DNA of 35,935 nucleotides from Lachnospiraceae bacterium. Lineage in GTDB: Bacteria > Bacillota > Clostridia > Lachnospirales > Lachnospiraceae. This document shows positions 27,175 through 35,935 of this stretch, piece by piece. The DNA is taken from assembly GCA_015057955.1 (NCBI GenBank), contig SVDE01000012.1:1-35935 (forward strand), read 5' to 3'. Numbering within the stretch: position 1 is the stretch's first letter; each line of letters begins with the position of its first letter. The notes under the pieces are model-generated. The model worked only from the letters and a program-made list of their open reading frames with translations. It had not been told where the DNA came from and ran no database searches. A program made the translations under genes and the position numbers.

Positions 27175-28443
27175 TCAGAATCTTGCAAGGATCCAGTCAG
27201 CAACAAAATCGAATGTGTTCTTAACTGTGTCGCCGAACTCGCCGGGGAACTTCTCTGCATCCTTTTCAGGGCGGAAGTTATGTGTTGCGCCTTCTACGAA
27301 AGCGATGGTCTTGTCATTTGTCTTTTTAGCGTTCTGGTATGCAACCTCGGAAGCAAGGAACTCATATCCTCCGGTCATGCCCATGAGCAGCATCGGAGCG
27401 GAGATGTGCTGAATGTTGCCGGGAGTTGCGCAGTATGCTGAATCCCAATCGATTCCAAGAACTTCTGTCTCAGTGATCCTGTATCCGTTGCTGCGGATGG
27501 TGCTGCCGCTGACGTATGTGCGGACTGTGGTAACTTCGCATGACATGCCGCAGTTCCTGTCAACAGACTTCGCGAATTTAGCAGGTCTTCTGGTATGAAC
27601 GATCTCGTTTGTGATGGAGCCGTCTGCATGGATCAGGTCATAAGCTTCCTTGGTGTGATTCAGGTAGCGGATGTCCTGAGGGAACAGACGGTTGTTAGGT
27701 GCAAGCTGTGTGCCGCAATGGATGATGAGGGGTTCATCATCATCATAGTATCCCTCTCCTGCGTCAAGGACAGCAGCCCTTGCCAAAGCGGTCTCGCGGA
27801 TGCGGTTGAATCTCTCTTCCTGTGCCTTGTTGTATTTAGCGACAAACTCCTCTGAATATGTTGAGCCTTCAGGTGTAAATCCATTTTCCGGAGCGTACGG
27901 ATCAAGCTCTTTATTGAGTTTTGTCGGGTCATCTTCGTCAATGATCATCGGGTTTACGCTAAGGATGTTCATTACGCCGTTGCCCCAGTTGGTATCGAGG
28001 AACATGACTGCTTCTGCAGGTGTAAGAGGATCGATATCCGGCATCTTATAGATGCGTCCTTCGTCCTGGAATATTTTAGCGCCGTTCTCAGCAACAGCCT
28101 GGTAGCAGCTCATAAGTGTTGCGCCGCCGCTGTGTCCGAGCAGGATAACTCTGTCAATGTCGGGAAGATTCCTGAGGTAGTCGGCGAAGAATCCTACATC
28201 TTGGATCTTTTTGTAGAGAGGAGATTTGGATTCGTGGACATTTGCGCCCATGACAGTGAAGCCTCTCTTTGCCAGCTCGGGGCAGGGGATGAATCCGTAG
28301 TAGTCACCGTCTGAGTGCATGACGAGTATGGCTGTCCTGCTGCGCTCATCTTTTTCAATAGGCTCATAGATAACGGCGCCTCTGCCGAATCCCATCTGGA
28401 TGTAAGTGTTCTTGATCTCGTAGTATTTTTTCTCTGCGCTCAT
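27175..28443 (-). CDS. alpha/beta hydrolase family protein (422 aa)
   Basis: ILVMHSDGDYYGF, VILLGHSGGATLMSCYQ nucleophile elbow, VEGATHNF His. Confidence 0.82.
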   Translation of the reverse strand: MSAEKKYYEIKNTYIQMGFGRGAVIYEPIEKDERSRTAILVMHSDGDYYGFIPCPELAKRGFTVMGANVHESKSPLYKKIQDVGFFADYLRNLPDIDRVILLGHSGGATLMSCYQAVAENGAKIFQDEGRIYKMPDIDPLTPAEAVMFLDTNWGNGVMNILSVNPMIIDEDDPTKLNKELDPYAPENGFTPEGSTYSEEFVAKYNKAQEERFNRIRETALARAAVLDAGEGYYDDDEPLIIHCGTQLAPNNRLFPQDIRYLNHTKEAYDLIHADGSITNEIVHTRRPAKFAKSVDRNCGMSCEVTTVRTYVSGSTIRSNGYRITETEVLGIDWDSAYCATPGNIQHISAPMLLMGMTGGYEFLASEVAYQNAKKTNDKTIAFVEGATHNFRPEKDAEKFPGEFGDTVKNTFDFVADWILARF

Positions 28444-28459: not shown

Positions 28460-29893
28460 TTATTCCAATATGTTTCTTAAAATATATGATTTGACCTGCG
28501 TCATCTCATCGAGAGTAACTGATACGCCCTCCCTGCCGATGCCGCTCATCTTCCGGCCTCCAAAGGGCTGGTCAAGATGCCTGTAGTTGCCTGACTGGTT
28601 GATCACGACTCCGCCGCATTCCAGTTTAGCGGCAACACGGATGGCCTTATTTATGTCTTTAGTAATTACTCCTGCCTGAAGGCCGTACATGGTCTGATTT
28701 GCGATCGCTATTGCTTCCTCTTCGGTGTCAAATCCTATGATGGGGATGACCGGACCGAAGCATTCCATGTCTTTCGCGATATCCATGCTCGGAGTTACTT
28801 CCAGTATGGTAGGAGCGTAATATGTCTCGGAAATGAATGTCCCGCCGCATATAAGCTTTGCGCCTTGGCTTATTGTCAGCTTAACCTGCTCATCGACTGT
28901 TTTGGCAGCTTTTGCTGATATCAGAGAGCCGAGTTCTGTTTTGTCATCCAGAGGGCTTCCCATGACAAGGGCGCCGATCTGTTCAACAGCACGTTTGATG
29001 AATGCGTCCTTGATGCTGTTCTGGACAAGAAACCTCTTGGGGGAGCAGCACGTCTGTCCTGCATTCTGCACACGGCCTCTGACTGCTCCTGTAACTGCCA
29101 GCTCAAAGTCAGCGTCTTCGAAAACGATGTAAGGATCGTTGCCGCCAAGCTCAAGGAATACACGTTTGAGTGTTCCTGCAGCCTTTTCGGCTATGTGCTT
29201 TCCGACAGCGGTGCTTCCGGTAAATGTGATGGCCGCTATATCAGGGCTTTCTGAAAGAATATCTCCGATATCGCTTCCGGCACCGGTCACAAGCTGAAGG
29301 ACGTTGCCGGGAACACCTGCTTCCCAGAGGATCTCAGCAACCTTCATCACTGTAAGCGGGTTGTCTGTGGAAGGCTTTATTATGACAGCGTTGCCTGCTG
29401 CAAGGGCAGCAGCATACTTCTGGCTGCACAGCTCGACCGGATAGTTAAAAGGTGAAATGCATGCTACCACTCCGAGTGGTTCATGCCTGGTAAATATTAT
29501 ATCATGTTCAGTACCAACTTGGTAATCGGTCATTGTCTGTCCGTAAAGATGGTTTGCTTTTTCCGCAAAACCGCGGATGATCTGGGCTGCGACGCGCACT
29601 TCCGGTCTTGCCTCAGATATGATCTTTCCCATTTCTATGCTGAGTGATCCGGCAAGTTCTTCACGTCTGGAGTCTATAAGATCGGCAGCCTTGTTTAATA
29701 TGGCTGATCTTTCGTAAACAGGAAGGGATCCCCAGTAACGGGCGCCTTCTTTTGCTGCTGCGATCGCTTCATTAACATCTTTCTCAGTCGCAGCAGGTAC
29801 TGTATCTATAAATTCAAGTGTTGCGGAGTTCAGCACATCTATGGTACGTCCGTCAGAGGCTTCTCTGCGCTCACCGTTAATAAACATTTTCAT
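28460..29893 (-). CDS. NAD(P)-dependent aldehyde dehydrogenase family protein
   Basis: ISPFNYPVELCSQKYAAALAAGNAVIIKPS, FTGSTAVGKHIAE, FLELGGNDPYIVFEDAD, NAGQTCCSPKRFLV; ATG 29893 preferred (ORF track TTG at 29917 falls inside a hairpin). Confidence 0.93.
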   Translation of the reverse strand: MKMFINGERREASDGRTIDVLNSATLEFIDTVPAATEKDVNEAIAAAKEGARYWGSLPVYERSAILNKAADLIDSRREELAGSLSIEMGKIISEARPEVRVAAQIIRGFAEKANHLYGQTMTDYQVGTEHDIIFTRHEPLGVVACISPFNYPVELCSQKYAAALAAGNAVIIKPSTDNPLTVMKVAEILWEAGVPGNVLQLVTGAGSDIGDILSESPDIAAITFTGSTAVGKHIAEKAAGTLKRVFLELGGNDPYIVFEDADFELAVTGAVRGRVQNAGQTCCSPKRFLVQNSIKDAFIKRAVEQIGALVMGSPLDDKTELGSLISAKAAKTVDEQVKLTISQGAKLICGGTFISETYYAPTILEVTPSMDIAKDMECFGPVIPIIGFDTEEEAIAIANQTMYGLQAGVITKDINKAIRVAAKLECGGVVINQSGNYRHLDQPFGGRKMSGIGREGVSVTLDEMTQVKSYILRNILE

Positions 29894-29912
29894 GATAGTT
29901 ATCTCTTTTATT

Positions 29913-29945
29913 ATCAAGGGGCTGCTTTTAATGCAGCCCCTTGAT
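29913..29945. other. Strong 13-bp-stem hairpin in the SBP1-ALDH intergenic region
   Basis: ATCAAGGGGCTGC-TTTTAAT-GCAGCCCCTTGAT, perfect stem, no clear T-tract on the minus strand. Confidence 0.85.
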
Positions 29946-29980: not shown

Positions 29981-32062
29981 TTACAGTCCTGTGAAAGCTC
30001 CGCTTTCCCAATCTGCTTTATACTTCTCGTAATCCTTGAAGTTAACAGGAACGAGACCGTTGTTGTCGAGGATTTCCCACTTGCATACGCCGTCATCCTC
30101 ATACCAGTCAGCATGCTCTTTCCAGAAATCGCTTCCTTCAGGAGGAACTGTGGTGATCTGGTTCGGGCCGTCTCCAGGGAAGTTCTTGTCACCTGTCATG
30201 GTGATAGTCTCAGCAGGCTCGATGTCAGGCTTGGTGCTCTTTACTTCAAGTGTCCAGCTGTCATCGGGATTAACTGTCAGTTTCCATACGATTCCGGCAC
30301 CATCTTCAGGATTGAATACCTGGTAGAAGATGTGAACATTGTTCGGAAGTCCTGAAGGCTCAGGAAGTGCAACGTCAAGCGGAGTTACGTTTGCTGAATG
30401 CTCAGCAGCATATCCTACGAATTCGCATGCTGTAGGAATTGTGAAGTTATGCTCTCTCTTGTAGAGCTTAGCAACGTTCTTTGAGCAGACGATAGCTGTT
30501 GCAGGCTGTGCCAGAGCGTAGAAGAAAGCATTCTCCTTGGTTGTGTAGTCGATAGCTTCCTGGATGTGCTCTGTATCATGAGTAGCATCAGCCTTGGCTG
30601 TCTCATAGAGTTCCTGCATCTTGTCATCGCTGACAAATGATACATTGTACTTCTTGCCATCGATCTCGTAAGTGCCGTTACCCATCAGACGGTTGTAAGA
30701 ACCAACAAGTGAAGGTCCGCCGATTGATGCGATGGAGATCTCCCATGCGTCATGATCAGCTTCTGTTGTACGCATAAGGCTGTTTGCAAGAGCATTGATC
30801 TTAACCTTGATGCCGATCTGATCAAGCTGTGCCTGGATCATGACTGCAGCGTTCTGCTGTGCTTCATTTGATTCACAGATAAGGGTGAGTTCTTCTCCCT
30901 TATAGTTTGACTTGCTGAGATAATCCTTAGCAAGGTCAGGATCATATGTGTTCATGTAGGTTTCCTGATCGCCCATGGAGTCATCCCAGTCGGGATAAGC
31001 GCTGTTACCGATAGTATCCATCGGAGCATAGTTGCCGCCCATAGCTACGCAGACAGCAGCACTGTCGATCGCATACCAGATTGCTTTACGAAGGTTTACG
31101 TCAGATGTAAGCTTGGTATCCCAGCAGTTGCAGTGAACGAATATATAGTCGCCCTGCACAAGCTCTTCAGCTGTATACTTGTCAGCGAAAGGTCCGCCCT
31201 CTTCGAACTCAGGCATAGCCATGGTCTGGATGTATTCGCAGTAGTCAACTGTGCCCTGCTCAAGAGCGATCTGAGCCTGAGCAGCTTCTGCAATGATAAG
31301 GAATTCAACTGTCTGTACATTTGCCCTGTGGATGTCAAGGTGTGTATCCATGATCTCAGGGTTCTTAAGAAGCCAGTAATCATCGTTAGCTTCAAGAACT
31401 ACGCTGGAGCCGGGGACATAAGACTTAACAACGTAAGCGCCTGTTCCTACAGGAGCGGTAGCGAAGTTGCCGTTCTCCATCTCTTTCTGTGAGAAGATCC
31501 ATGTACGGGTCATAGGGAACTCGAGCTCATCCCATGATGTGGGCTCAAACTTCCATGTCCACTCAACAGTGTAGTCATCAATTTTCTTGATGCTGTCGAA
31601 TACTTCATACTTCGGGCACTCACCGCTCTCTACGAGCCAGTTTACTGAGTAAACAACATCATCAGCTGTGATGTGGTTTCCGTTAGAGTCATAGATGCAG
31701 TCATAGATCTCTACCTGATAATGAAGAGAGTCGACACATGTGATGGATTTGCCCAGAGAAGGAACAAAGTTGTTGTCATCATCATAATCGAACAGAGCTT
31801 CATAAATTGAATGATAGAATAATGTCTTAGGGTTACCGTTGCCGTTTGTGGGATTCAGGTTTGTAGGATCCGCATTAACGGCGATCTTGAATGACGGATA
31901 ACGTCCGGTCTCAGTTGCAGCCGGAGTTTCTCCGCCGCCTGCTGCTGTAGTAGCGTCACCGCCGCCTGCTGCTGTTGTTGCGCCGCCTGAACCAGAACCG
32001 CCGCATGCAGCGAGACTGATAACCATGATAACTGCAAGCAAAGTCGCAATAAGTTTCTTCAT
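29981..32062 (-). CDS. ABC transporter substrate-binding protein, family 5 (peptide/oligopeptide type), SBP1
   Basis: MKKLIATLLAVIMVISLAACGGSGSGG lipoprotein signal, ATTAAGGG linker repeats, APVGTGAYVVKSYVPGSSVVLEAN, VNLRKAIWYAIDSAAV. Confidence 0.93.
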   Translation of the reverse strand: MKKLIATLLAVIMVISLAACGGSGSGGATTAAGGGDATTAAGGGETPAATETGRYPSFKIAVNADPTNLNPTNGNGNPKTLFYHSIYEALFDYDDDNNFVPSLGKSITCVDSLHYQVEIYDCIYDSNGNHITADDVVYSVNWLVESGECPKYEVFDSIKKIDDYTVEWTWKFEPTSWDELEFPMTRTWIFSQKEMENGNFATAPVGTGAYVVKSYVPGSSVVLEANDDYWLLKNPEIMDTHLDIHRANVQTVEFLIIAEAAQAQIALEQGTVDYCEYIQTMAMPEFEEGGPFADKYTAEELVQGDYIFVHCNCWDTKLTSDVNLRKAIWYAIDSAAVCVAMGGNYAPMDTIGNSAYPDWDDSMGDQETYMNTYDPDLAKDYLSKSNYKGEELTLICESNEAQQNAAVMIQAQLDQIGIKVKINALANSLMRTTEADHDAWEISIASIGGPSLVGSYNRLMGNGTYEIDGKKYNVSFVSDDKMQELYETAKADATHDTEHIQEAIDYTTKENAFFYALAQPATAIVCSKNVAKLYKREHNFTIPTACEFVGYAAEHSANVTPLDVALPEPSGLPNNVHIFYQVFNPEDGAGIVWKLTVNPDDSWTLEVKSTKPDIEPAETITMTGDKNFPGDGPNQITTVPPEGSDFWKEHADWYEDDGVCKWEILDNNGLVPVNFKDYEKYKADWESGAFTGL
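31932..31985. repeat. Two tandem copies of an imperfect 27-bp repeat encoding the SBP1 linker
   Basis: CCGCCGCCTGCTGCTGTAGTAGCGTCA followed by CCGCCGCCTGCTGCTGTTGTTGCG...; encodes ATTAAGGGD/ATTAAGGGE. Confidence 0.85.
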
Positions 32063-32184: not shown

Positions 32185-32227
32185 TTCCTATTTTGAAAAT
32201 CCGGTATTTAACTATTCCAATTTGGAA
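32185..32227. promoter_or_regulatory. Pair of predicted LysR-type (T-N11-A) boxes in the SBP1/lysR intergenic region
   Basis: TTCC-TATTT-TGAA (32185-32197) and TTCC-AATTT-GGAA (32215-32227), exactly 30 bp apart. Confidence 0.65.
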
Positions 32228-32231
32228 ATGA

Positions 32232-32260
32232 TTGACGGTTTTTCTAATGAAAGATATAAT
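32232..32260 (+). promoter_or_regulatory. sigmaA-type promoter of lysR
   Basis: TTGACG (32232-32237), N17, TATAAT (32255-32260). Confidence 0.85.
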
Positions 32261-32306
32261 ATTGGTAAATTATTTGGTCAAATCTACCAAATAGGGGGGG
32301 CAAGTA

Positions 32307-33206
32307 ATGGAAACCGAGCATGTAAAAGAATTTCTTGTAATGGCTGATAAGCTGAACTATACGGCCGCCAGCGATGAATTGTTCATTTCCCAGTCATCTC
32401 TTTTCAAGCACATACGCGCTCTTGAAGATGAACTGGGAGTTGCTTTCTTTGCAAAAGAAGGCAAAAGAGTGGTAATGACAGAGTATGGCAAGATGTTTGT
32501 CCATCATGCCGAGATCATGCTGCGCCAGATCCAAACATACAAAGCCGAGGTTGAAGCTCACAGGGAAGCGCAGGAAAAAACTCTTAATATAATGATAGCA
32601 AACCCGAATGCCGAACTGGAATTCGCATTCAGGAAAGCATTTCCTCAGTACAAGCTGAATTCCGAGCATTTGTCTAATATCGAGGATACAGAAAAAACTG
32701 ACGCCGAGATAATAATACTCCGCGGTTCAATTCCTGAACTTGAAGAAAACTGGGATCATCAAGATCTTGCCACAGACTCCCTTGTGGTGATCGCTCCAAA
32801 TGATCATCCGGTCGCCGCCAGGAAGAGTGTTAAGCTGATAGATCTGAAAAATGAGGACTTTATCGGTTTCTCCGCGCGCGGTCCGCATGTGCTCAATAAC
32901 CGTTTCGGAATGATGTATGATGTGGTCAGTATCTGCAGAGGCGCAGGATTCGAACCGAATGTGATCATGTCAGCCTTCCCGGGAAGCGAGATAGCAAGGC
33001 TCGTAAGCCAGGGAGGAGGCATTTCCATCTTATTTAAAAAAGCAACCATGCGCAGGATGGGAGATCAGGTCAGTTATGTTGATATCGAACCGTCATTGAT
33101 ATTCCCGATAAGAGCCTATCACAGGAAAGGCAAAAAGCTTTCTGAGGTGGCACAGGCTTATCTGAAGTTTACAAAAGAATGGTATCAATCTTTATATAGT
33201 AAATAA
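32307..33206 (+). CDS. LysR family transcriptional regulator
   Basis: N-terminal wHTH FLVMADKLNYTAASDELFISQSSLFKHIRALEDELGVAFFAKEGKRVVMTEYG and substrate-binding C-terminal domain. Confidence 0.95.
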   Translation: METEHVKEFLVMADKLNYTAASDELFISQSSLFKHIRALEDELGVAFFAKEGKRVVMTEYGKMFVHHAEIMLRQIQTYKAEVEAHREAQEKTLNIMIANPNAELEFAFRKAFPQYKLNSEHLSNIEDTEKTDAEIIILRGSIPELEENWDHQDLATDSLVVIAPNDHPVAARKSVKLIDLKNEDFIGFSARGPHVLNNRFGMMYDVVSICRGAGFEPNVIMSAFPGSEIARLVSQGGGISILFKKATMRRMGDQVSYVDIEPSLIFPIRAYHRKGKKLSEVAQAYLKFTKEWYQSLYSK

Positions 33207-33215
33207 AATCTTATC

Positions 33216-33247
33216 TCCGCGAAGGGCATTCCTTCGCGGATTTCTTT
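33216..33247 (+). terminator. Terminator after lysR
   Basis: TCCGCGAAGG-GCATT-CCTTCGCGGA followed by TTTCTTTT. Confidence 0.85.
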
Positions 33248-33289
33248 TCCAAAACGGAATAATACCCACGCCTTTTTTCCAATTGTAAA
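33247..33289 (+). promoter_or_regulatory. Pair of predicted LysR-type boxes upstream of the hydrolase-dppBC operon
   Basis: TTCC-AAAAC-GGAA (33247-33259) and TTCC-AATTG-TAAA (33277-33289), exactly 30 bp apart; TATAAT at 33313-33318 downstream. Confidence 0.65.
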
Positions 33290-33338
33290 ATAGTATTCTC
33301 CGATAGCTGGTTTATAATAAGATCACCCATTGTAAAGA

Positions 33339-34436
33339 ATGTGCCAATTTTTTATAAATGAGGTGATCGTTATTTTAGCTTTAAAAAAGGGCCATCGCCC
33401 TCCTCCCAACGGAGGAATTCTTCATGCCCTTGAACCGGTCATCCCAGGCTGGAGCAAGGAAGCTTTTGATCTGTCCGCTTCCGGACAGGCAGCCGAAAGA
33501 CGCACACATAAAAATCTGAGATTCGAAGACGACGAACTGAACCCTGAGTACATTAAGCAGTTTACGGAAATGGGTGTAAAAAAAGAAGTCTTCGACACAG
33601 ACCATGACGAAGGCAGATACCGCTATAATGTCCACACTCCGTTGGATATTAAAGATGGAGAGCTGCTTCCGGTGCTCTATGTTTCCCATGGAGGAATGGG
33701 TACCCCGTTTCAGGCGGAGAACTGGGGATTTTCCGAACTGATCGCAAACGAACGTTTTATTGCAGTATATGCGAATAACGGCGGCTATTCCAATGAAGAT
33801 ACTGATACAGAGTTCCCAAGGATATTAGAGGCTGTGATCAGTAATTATCCGGTCGACCAGAGCAGGGTCTATGCATTCGGTTTTTCATCCGGCAGTGATG
33901 CAACCGAAACAGCAGCAACGCTGTGGCCTGAAAAGATAGCCGCATGCGTTCCGGCACCCGGATCCAATGCCATGTACAACAGCTTGTGCAGGCTGACAGA
34001 GGAGGCTTATGAGAAGTGTATCCCGCTGAGGATGCCATGTCTGTTTCTTGGCGGAACAGCTGACTATGGTGACAGATGGCCGTTCCCGGATGAAGAGTGT
34101 TTTGAAAATTTCAACATATGGGCAGAGAAGATCTGCAAAGTGCCGGAGTTCATCCCTACATCTCTGGCAAAATCCAAAATGATCATTGATATTTCGAATG
34201 ATCCTGTGGAAAGGGCGGCAGGGCTGCGCTTTCCGGTAACTTATACATTTGAGGAAGAAGAACGTGAATGGTATGTAGGCGAGTTCCCTGATGAGAACGG
34301 GCATCCGATCTTAAAGGTGATACTTGCAGAAGGACTTCCTCATGTTATCACGGACGCCCATGCTCCGCTTGCGTGGGAATTCCTGAAACATTGGTCAAGG
34401 GCTCCGAAAACGGGCAAATTGACCTATACAGAATAA
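33339..34436 (+). CDS. alpha/beta hydrolase / PHB-depolymerase-like esterase
   Basis: LLPVLYVSHGGMGTPFQ, YPVDQSRVYAFGFSSGSDATE nucleophile region, LPHVITDAHAPLAWEF; start uncertain (GTG 33363 is an alternative). Confidence 0.78.
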   Translation: MCQFFINEVIVILALKKGHRPPPNGGILHALEPVIPGWSKEAFDLSASGQAAERRTHKNLRFEDDELNPEYIKQFTEMGVKKEVFDTDHDEGRYRYNVHTPLDIKDGELLPVLYVSHGGMGTPFQAENWGFSELIANERFIAVYANNGGYSNEDTDTEFPRILEAVISNYPVDQSRVYAFGFSSGSDATETAATLWPEKIAACVPAPGSNAMYNSLCRLTEEAYEKCIPLRMPCLFLGGTADYGDRWPFPDEECFENFNIWAEKICKVPEFIPTSLAKSKMIIDISNDPVERAAGLRFPVTYTFEEEEREWYVGEFPDENGHPILKVILAEGLPHVITDAHAPLAWEFLKHWSRAPKTGKLTYTE

Positions 34437-34454: not shown

Positions 34455-35420
34455 ATGGGAAGATACATAATCAAACGTATACTCACGATGATTGTTATCA
34501 TAATCATTGCCGCTTTTGTGGGATTTACGCTTATGTACGTAGTACCGGGAGATCCCGCCAGAAACCTTCTCGGCAATGACGCAACAGCAGAGCTGCTCGC
34601 GGCAAAGAGAGCCGAATTGGGCATAGACAAGCCCTATCTGGTGCAGCTCGGAACTTACTTTTACAACACGTTCATAAGGTTTGATCTGGGTACTTCTTGG
34701 GTTTATAAAACACCCGTAGTAGAGGCTCTTGCTGAACGTCTTCCGAGAACGCTCATCATCGGAGCAGGCGGCATGCTGCTGAACGTTGTTGTCGGTACAC
34801 TGCTTGGTATATTCGCAGCTACGCATCAGGGCAAGCTCGGAGACAGCATAACGATGATCCTTGCCATGGCATTTGTTTCATTCCCGGATTTCTGGGTGGC
34901 GCTGATGGCGATACTGCTGTTCTCATCAACGCTCAACTGGCTGCCGGCCTTCGGTATTGACAGCTGGAAATGCTACATACTGCCGATCCTGTGTTCGTCG
35001 CTCGGCGGTATAGCGGTAAATGCAAGACAGAGCCGAAGCGCCATGCTGGAGACTATCCGTGCGGATTTCGTTACTACTGCAAGGGCAAAGGGACAGCTTG
35101 AAAAGGTTGTAGTCAGAAGACACATGCTCCCGAACGCCATGATGCCGATCATCACAGGTGTAGGCGGAGGTCTTGCACATATTGTTGCCGGATCACCTGT
35201 CATGGAGACGGTTTTCTCAATCCCCGGAGTCGGACAGTACATGCTCATGGGTGTAAATGTACAGGACAGGCCGATAGTCTGCGCATGTATCGTTTTCTTC
35301 GCAGCATTTACATCGGTTGCGATCCTTGTAATGGATCTGTGCTACGCATTCCTTGATCCGAGGATCAAAGCCCAGTACGCGAGCAAAAAGAGAAAGAAAA
35401 CAAAGGAGGCGATCGCATAA
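34455..35420 (+). CDS. dppB: ABC transporter permease, DppB/OppB family
   Basis: MGRYIIKRILTMIVIIIIAAFVGFTLMYVVPGDPARNLLG, ARQSRSAMLETIRADFVTTARAKG, GSPVMETVFSIPGVGQYM. Confidence 0.94.
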   Translation: MGRYIIKRILTMIVIIIIAAFVGFTLMYVVPGDPARNLLGNDATAELLAAKRAELGIDKPYLVQLGTYFYNTFIRFDLGTSWVYKTPVVEALAERLPRTLIIGAGGMLLNVVVGTLLGIFAATHQGKLGDSITMILAMAFVSFPDFWVALMAILLFSSTLNWLPAFGIDSWKCYILPILCSSLGGIAVNARQSRSAMLETIRADFVTTARAKGQLEKVVVRRHMLPNAMMPIITGVGGGLAHIVAGSPVMETVFSIPGVGQYMLMGVNVQDRPIVCACIVFFAAFTSVAILVMDLCYAFLDPRIKAQYASKKRKKTKEAIA

Positions 35421-35935
35421 TGAATGAGGCAGCAACTGTAAAAGTTAAAAAATCTTCTGCTTTTGGCGAATTCATTTATCGTCTCACAAAGAGCGCAAGC
35501 GCAAAGATCGGTCTTATCATATTGGGGCTGGTCATTCTGTTCTGTATCATCGGTCCGCTTTTCGTTCCTTATGGTGTGAATGAAATGGACATGACACTGA
35601 TGTTCGCAAAGCCTTCAGCCGCCCATCCTTTCGGATGTGACAGCCTTGGACGAGACATCATGATCCGTCTTATGTACGGTGGAAGATATTCACTTATCCT
35701 GGGCTTGAGCGCTTCAGTGCTTTCGGGATTTATAGGCATTATCATAGGATGTTTCGCCGGTTATGTCGGCGGAGTTGTTGAAACCATCATCATGCGTTTC
35801 ATGGATGTATGGAGCGCTCTTCCTGCAATGCTCCTTTGCATACTTCTGTCAGCAGTCTTCGGAGCAGGTTTCATTCCTACGATCGTAGCCCTGATAATCG
35901 GACAGATACCGGGCGGTGTCCGAATGACACGTGGA
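35420..35935 (+). CDS. dppC: ABC transporter permease, DppC/OppC family (partial, runs off window)
   Basis: Start codon overlaps dppB stop (TAATG); MNEAATVKVKKSSAFGEFIYRLTKSASAKIGLIILGLVILFCIIGPLF...AHPFGCDSLGRDIMIRLMYGGRYSL. Confidence 0.93.
   Translation, partial: MNEAATVKVKKSSAFGEFIYRLTKSASAKIGLIILGLVILFCIIGPLFVPYGVNEMDMTLMFAKPSAAHPFGCDSLGRDIMIRLMYGGRYSLILGLSASVLSGFIGIIIGCFAGYVGGVVETIIMRFMDVWSALPAMLLCILLSAVFGAGFIPTIVALIIGQIPGGVRMTRG

Follow-up and report, generated by a model that had tools for sequence, protein, structure and literature searches.

Paired palindromic boxes on both sides of a Lachnospiraceae lysR gene as probable operators of its product

The window, that is, the whole stretch of 35,935 nucleotides analyzed here, is an entire contig (C233) of a fragmented Lachnospiraceae assembly (2.94 Mb, 263 contigs) in which ORFs were called mechanically; the tests described below depend on both. 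A lysR gene lies there between a presumed leftward SBP1-aldehyde dehydrogenase-hydrolase operon, headed by SBP1, and a rightward hydrolase-dpp operon:

27175..28443, minus strand: 422-aa presumed alpha/beta hydrolase, homologues of which recur beside related lysR, SBP and dpp genes
28460..29917, minus strand: aldehyde dehydrogenase (PF00171, 4.5e-162)
29981..32062, minus strand: SBP1, SBP_bac_5 solute-binding lipoprotein (PF00496, 1.9e-56)
32307..33206, plus strand: lysR, 299 aa (Pfam HTH_1 4e-13, LysR_substrate 1e-20)
33216..33240, plus strand: intrinsic terminator 3′ of lysR (11-pair stem, T-rich tail), dividing lysR from the hydrolase-dpp operon
33339..34436, plus strand: 365-aa esterase-like hydrolase heading the rightward operon (NF050058, 1.5e-11, below cut-off)
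34455..35420, plus strand: dppB/nikB-type permease (BPD_transp_1, 3.5e-33)
35420..35935, plus strand: dppC/oppC-type permease, truncated by the contig end (OppC_N, 5.8e-10)

The lysR product has the build of a LysR-type regulator: an N-terminal HTH_1 domain (residues 5-62), a C-terminal LysR_substrate domain (residues 107-292), both exceeding the Pfam cut-offs, and a length of about 300 amino acids. The closest solved structures by sequence are the LysR-family chains 7w06 and 5y2v, both distant. GltC, CidR and AlsR are among the best NCBIfam models (E 1e-37, 4e-37 and 6e-27), but with 130, 128 and 95 bits against cut-offs of 350, 415 and 430 the protein stays far below all three and is not assigned to any of these equivalog families; their neighboring genes are unlike those of the window lysR. 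Similarity of the 365-aa hydrolase to PHB depolymerase-type esterases (NF050058) is weak, and a search for a Pfam match in the 422-aa presumed hydrolase returned none. Where the 365-aa hydrolase starts is doubtful: a good ribosome site is missing in front of ATG 33339, GAGGTGAT at 33360 stands before an in-frame ATT at 33372 (region 33339-33375), and the alignment with homologues begins only at about residue 38. Since SBP1 and the dpp permeases, seemingly parts of one transporter, are located in separate operons, there would be reason for a regulator common to both.

The candidate regulatory elements are as follows:

32185..32197: box A1, TTCCTATTTTGAA, proximal to SBP1, degenerate, candidate activation site
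32215..32227: box A2, TTCCAATTTGGAA, distal to SBP1, perfect, candidate recognition site
32232..32260, plus strand: lysR promoter TTGACG-N17-TATAAT, 11/12 consensus positions
33247..33259: box B1, TTCCAAAACGGAA, distal to the hydrolase, perfect TTCC-N5-GGAA, candidate recognition site
33277..33289: box B2, TTCCAATTGTAAA, proximal to the hydrolase, degenerate, candidate activation site
33313..33318, plus strand: TATAAT, read in the sequence, presumed -10 of the hydrolase-dpp promoter, no recognizable -35

An earlier note on this DNA had described these boxes, and direct reading reproduced exactly their four positions, the fit of each 13-nt box to T-N11-A and the 30-bp start-to-start spacing shared by A1-A2 and B1-B2. 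At both promoters the box farther from SBP1 or the hydrolase is the perfect TTCC-N5-GGAA and the nearer one is imperfect, as the note had observed; out of six dyad pairs, six are present in A2, four each in A1 and B1, and three in B2. The lysR promoter that it had recognized is likewise there, with A2 ending 4 bp upstream of its -35 element. The hydrolase TATAAT, described in the note as having no good -35, was absent from our promoter scan, which is consistent with the missing -35. Counted from an inferred start at about 33325, the centers of B1 and B2 would fall near -72 and -42. In front of SBP1 the promoter scan recognized no convincing -10, and hence no start was placed there.

As the earlier note had proposed, the genome was scanned for pairs of TTCC-N5-GGAA at 30 bp. 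With at most two mismatches, four places were retrieved from 2.94 Mb, two of them at this locus, which has the sole one-mismatch place and one of the three two-mismatch places in the genome. Pairs of TTCC-N7-AA separated by N17 also occur four times (none for the reversed control), twice at this locus, and all remaining matches of both searches are inside ORFs. The five genome matches to TTCCAAANNGGAA comprise two window boxes, two sites inside ORFs and one within a terminator-like hairpin, so that only the window boxes stand at promoters. The single TTCC-N5-GGAA is frequent (145 in the genome vs. 94 for the reversed control) and means little by itself. Pairs at 30 bp with at most one mismatch were found in 105 of 397 family genomes; those listed mostly resemble chance matches or repeats more than operators, and the pair alone is therefore not diagnostic. 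When the two intergenic regions were compared without a preset motif (13-mers at spacings of 13-45, in either orientation), the best solution consisted of these same four boxes, 30 bp apart, with 7/13 columns invariant. On identity alone this was equaled in 29 of 5000 dinucleotide shuffles; when dyad symmetry was added to identity, a combined score picked post hoc, no shuffle among the 5000 equaled it.

We have analyzed 250 bp upstream of each of 85 LysR genes, 31 of which were taken as related, matching either the window LysR or its relative L065 at E below 1e-24. Of 3072 gapped tetramer dyads, TTCC-N5-GGAA occurred most often, being present upstream of 8/31 related but only 2/54 remaining genes (Fisher 0.004; 0.009 with the window left out). 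Without the window it was still the top dyad, found at 7 of 30 related genes; in 1000 dinucleotide-shuffled sets its mean was 0.16 and its maximum 2, so that none reached 7, and neither did any dyad with at least two G/C per tetramer. The co-top dyads ATTC-N7-GAAT, TATT-N9-AATA and TTAT-N11-ATAA nest into a longer palindrome, TTATTCC-N5-GGAATAA. No more than 130 bp from the start codon, six boxes were counted, where their density in these loci would predict 0.24. A matrix was then created from six sites of other loci, with the window excluded, and about 35,900 window positions were scanned with it. Because the six sites had been selected by their TTCC/GGAA core, independence is limited to the inner and flanking bases in the resulting scores, which placed B1 (33247) first and A2 (32215) second, with 20.2 and 19.2 vs. 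11.6 for the next position; the proximal boxes A1 and B2 ranked 16th and 32nd.

Recurrence of the box upstream of related regulators, as expected of an LTTR operator, was thus found, though many members have no box: an exact one is wanting upstream of 23/31 related genes, including paralogues of the same genome on contigs C20 and C51. No second-box spacing common to the relatives emerged when matrix scores were averaged at set distances from their lysR boxes. A literature search for TTCC-N5-GGAA found no match, which is weak evidence given spelling variants and limited coverage.

In many family genomes, and on contig C213 of the same genome, LysR genes have SBP_bac_5, dppBC and hydrolase homologues as neighbors. 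The nearest LysR (36-38% identity) is that of Diplocloster agilis (G028), codirectional with SBP1-dppBC; close synteny is seen only there and conservation is partial. Congeners have neither a close LysR (best E 2e-18) nor the 365-aa hydrolase, contig scans of genomes retrieved nothing beyond D. agilis and one Lachnospiraceae MAG, and an order-level search added one relative with 31% identity. As regards phylogenetic footprinting, suggested in the earlier note as a check, the palindrome does recur at related lysR genes, but the D. agilis lysR has a box with one mismatch only and most related genes have no exact copy. Several candidates were put aside. L084 and L085 belong to a different LysR group, in L164 a pair of boxes at a distance of 31 bp (3199, 3230) falls within an ORF and was rejected as an operator, and a copy of TTCCAAAACGGAA in L078 (11252) has no recognizable target promoter.

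A parallel was detected in another genome of the family (G083, locus L168), where a related lysR is located near a homologue of the 422-aa hydrolase, SBP_bac_5, dppB, dppC and a gene for a secreted esterase (EstA_Ig_like, PF00756). The esterase promoter carries a TTCC-N5-GGAA box, TTCCATTCTGGAA (11170), and the SBP promoter carries TTCCAAATTGGAA (12735), which is A2 of the window on the opposite strand. In both, the same 9-mer, CGAATTGAT, begins exactly 30 bp downstream of the box. The two genes are non-homologous (blastp E 0.4), the spacers of the two promoters are 35% identical and the rest 22%, and a 9-base run at one offset arose in 5 of 20,000 shuffles. As in the window, two promoters thus combine TTCC-N5-GGAA with a second shared element at 30 bp. 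Since that element is unlike the degenerate TTCC boxes of the window, the parallel is one of layout, not of sequence; the lysR of G083, moreover, is without a clear box. Searches for orthologues of the esterase and SBP promoters returned none in its genus and no tight one in the family. Upstream of the esterase (L168, 11000-11090) is a 90-bp stretch, perhaps a small mobile repeat, that recurs at two other places of G083 with 99-100% identity.

LysR-type proteins usually bind two sites, one for recognition (T-N11-A) near -65 and one for activation near -35/-10 (PMC8407307, PMC11602165); in AccR, the RBS extends from -79 to -62 and ABS(I) from -48 to -33, with centers 30 bp apart (PMC11602165). 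The window shares with LTTR operators the dyad T-N11-A boxes, a strong distal and a weak proximal site, the 30-bp distance between centers and the position beside the regulator gene, and with their predicted distances from the start the hydrolase boxes would resemble them in position as well. It differs in that the palindrome is specifically TTCC-N5-GGAA and that two promoters flank lysR in place of one shared divergent promoter. Likeness to the AccR-accS operator is in geometry: organism and target gene are different, and no third subsite of the ABS(II) kind was identified in the window. Judged by sequence, the boxes are real and probably form a canonical LysR recognition/activation layout, and the predicted mechanism of control is classical.

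We consider it likely that all four boxes serve as operators for the product of the intervening lysR gene, their presumed binder, and that this protein controls both operons. The earlier note had arrived at the same reading, which is now strengthened by the recurrence of the palindrome at related lysR genes even when the window is omitted, by the top two ranks that the other-loci matrix gives to the perfect window boxes and by the two-element 30-bp design of the G083 esterase and SBP promoters.

It is unlikely that the two perfect palindromes are the only LysR sites, each bound by a dimer as the one site of its promoter, while the proximal boxes are chance products of AT-rich DNA. The low matrix ranks of the proximal boxes, the single clear box near lysR in most relatives and the shuffles that equaled the four-box solution on identity agree with such an arrangement; the exact 30-bp repetition at two promoters, the genome-wide scarcity of such pairs, the conserved second element that G083 has at the same distance and published LTTR geometry (PMC11602165) speak against it. 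The proposed role of the proximal boxes as activation sites leans mainly on the internal 30-bp repetition.

Binding of the boxes by a different regulator, possibly another LysR of the genome with the same palindrome, has a very small probability. Cross-binding would be possible, since 21 LysR proteins of the genome match this one and the paralogue on C213 has TTCCATACAGGAA just 3′ of its own -10; against this, the boxes flank this particular lysR on both sides, and no other TTCCAAANNGGAA match stands at a promoter. Chance similarity in AT-rich intergenic DNA is hardly credible, for although the pattern was picked after the sequence had been seen and one-mismatch pairs are widespread in the family, the enrichment at related lysR genes persists without the window, B1 and A2 head the matrix ranking, and the G083 parallel adds to a case in which chance was already disfavored.

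If the encoded LysR does control both operons, ligand-dependent activation of both by one LysR tetramer is the most likely mechanism. The tetramer would anchor on the strong palindrome TTCC-N5-GGAA as recognition site and reach the weaker box 30 bp closer to the target promoter, the activation site at about -42; ligand-bound LysR would then recruit RNA polymerase to promoters that have no good -35. Activation rather than repression is a prediction, as are the transcription starts. Control would extend leftward to SBP1-aldehyde dehydrogenase-hydrolase and rightward to esterase-dppBC, so that both halves of the split uptake/hydrolysis set would be switched together. A split peptide-type transporter/esterase set is very probably under one regulator, which acts on both of its halves as LysR proteins ordinarily do. 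The ligand is probably the compound taken up, an ester or a peptide-like molecule, or a product of it, and a regulon that unites the split SBP/permease transporter with an esterase and an aldehyde dehydrogenase would help to guess the substrate.

A2, adjoining the lysR promoter, may also adjust lysR expression. The autorepression suggested in the earlier note is only plausible: in relatives the box usually stands about 3 bp after the -10 (it begins 1-3 bp 3′ of the lysR -10 in several), an autorepression position, while A2 is found just upstream of the -35.

Many LysR genes of the clade adjoin peptide-type ABC transporter and esterase/hydrolase genes. We put forward, as a tentative and rather doubtful generalization, that a Lachnospiraceae LysR clade shares the operator TTATTCC-N5-GGAATAA, with members distinguished by the proximal element 30 bp away. 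If true, paralogous regulators would share an anchoring palindrome and differ in their activation sites. Apart from this generalization, the boxes provide a concrete operator candidate for an uncharacterized LysR group of gut-type Lachnospiraceae.

Some further observations were made on other loci. On C213, a homologue of the 422-aa hydrolase (L080, 20-898) matches in three separate segments, which would fit frameshifts or errors of assembly, and adjoins another LysR-SBP-dppBC set. L044 and L094, members of a different LysR group (MDIxQLRYFNTVxHLENISKAA), likewise carry an exact TTCC-N5-GGAA, some 50 bp ahead of their start codons. TATTCC-N5-GAATA-like boxes were seen in G289 (L163, at about 6911 and 9408) upstream of a related lysR and of a UbiD-type decarboxylase gene, the latter suggesting another target class.
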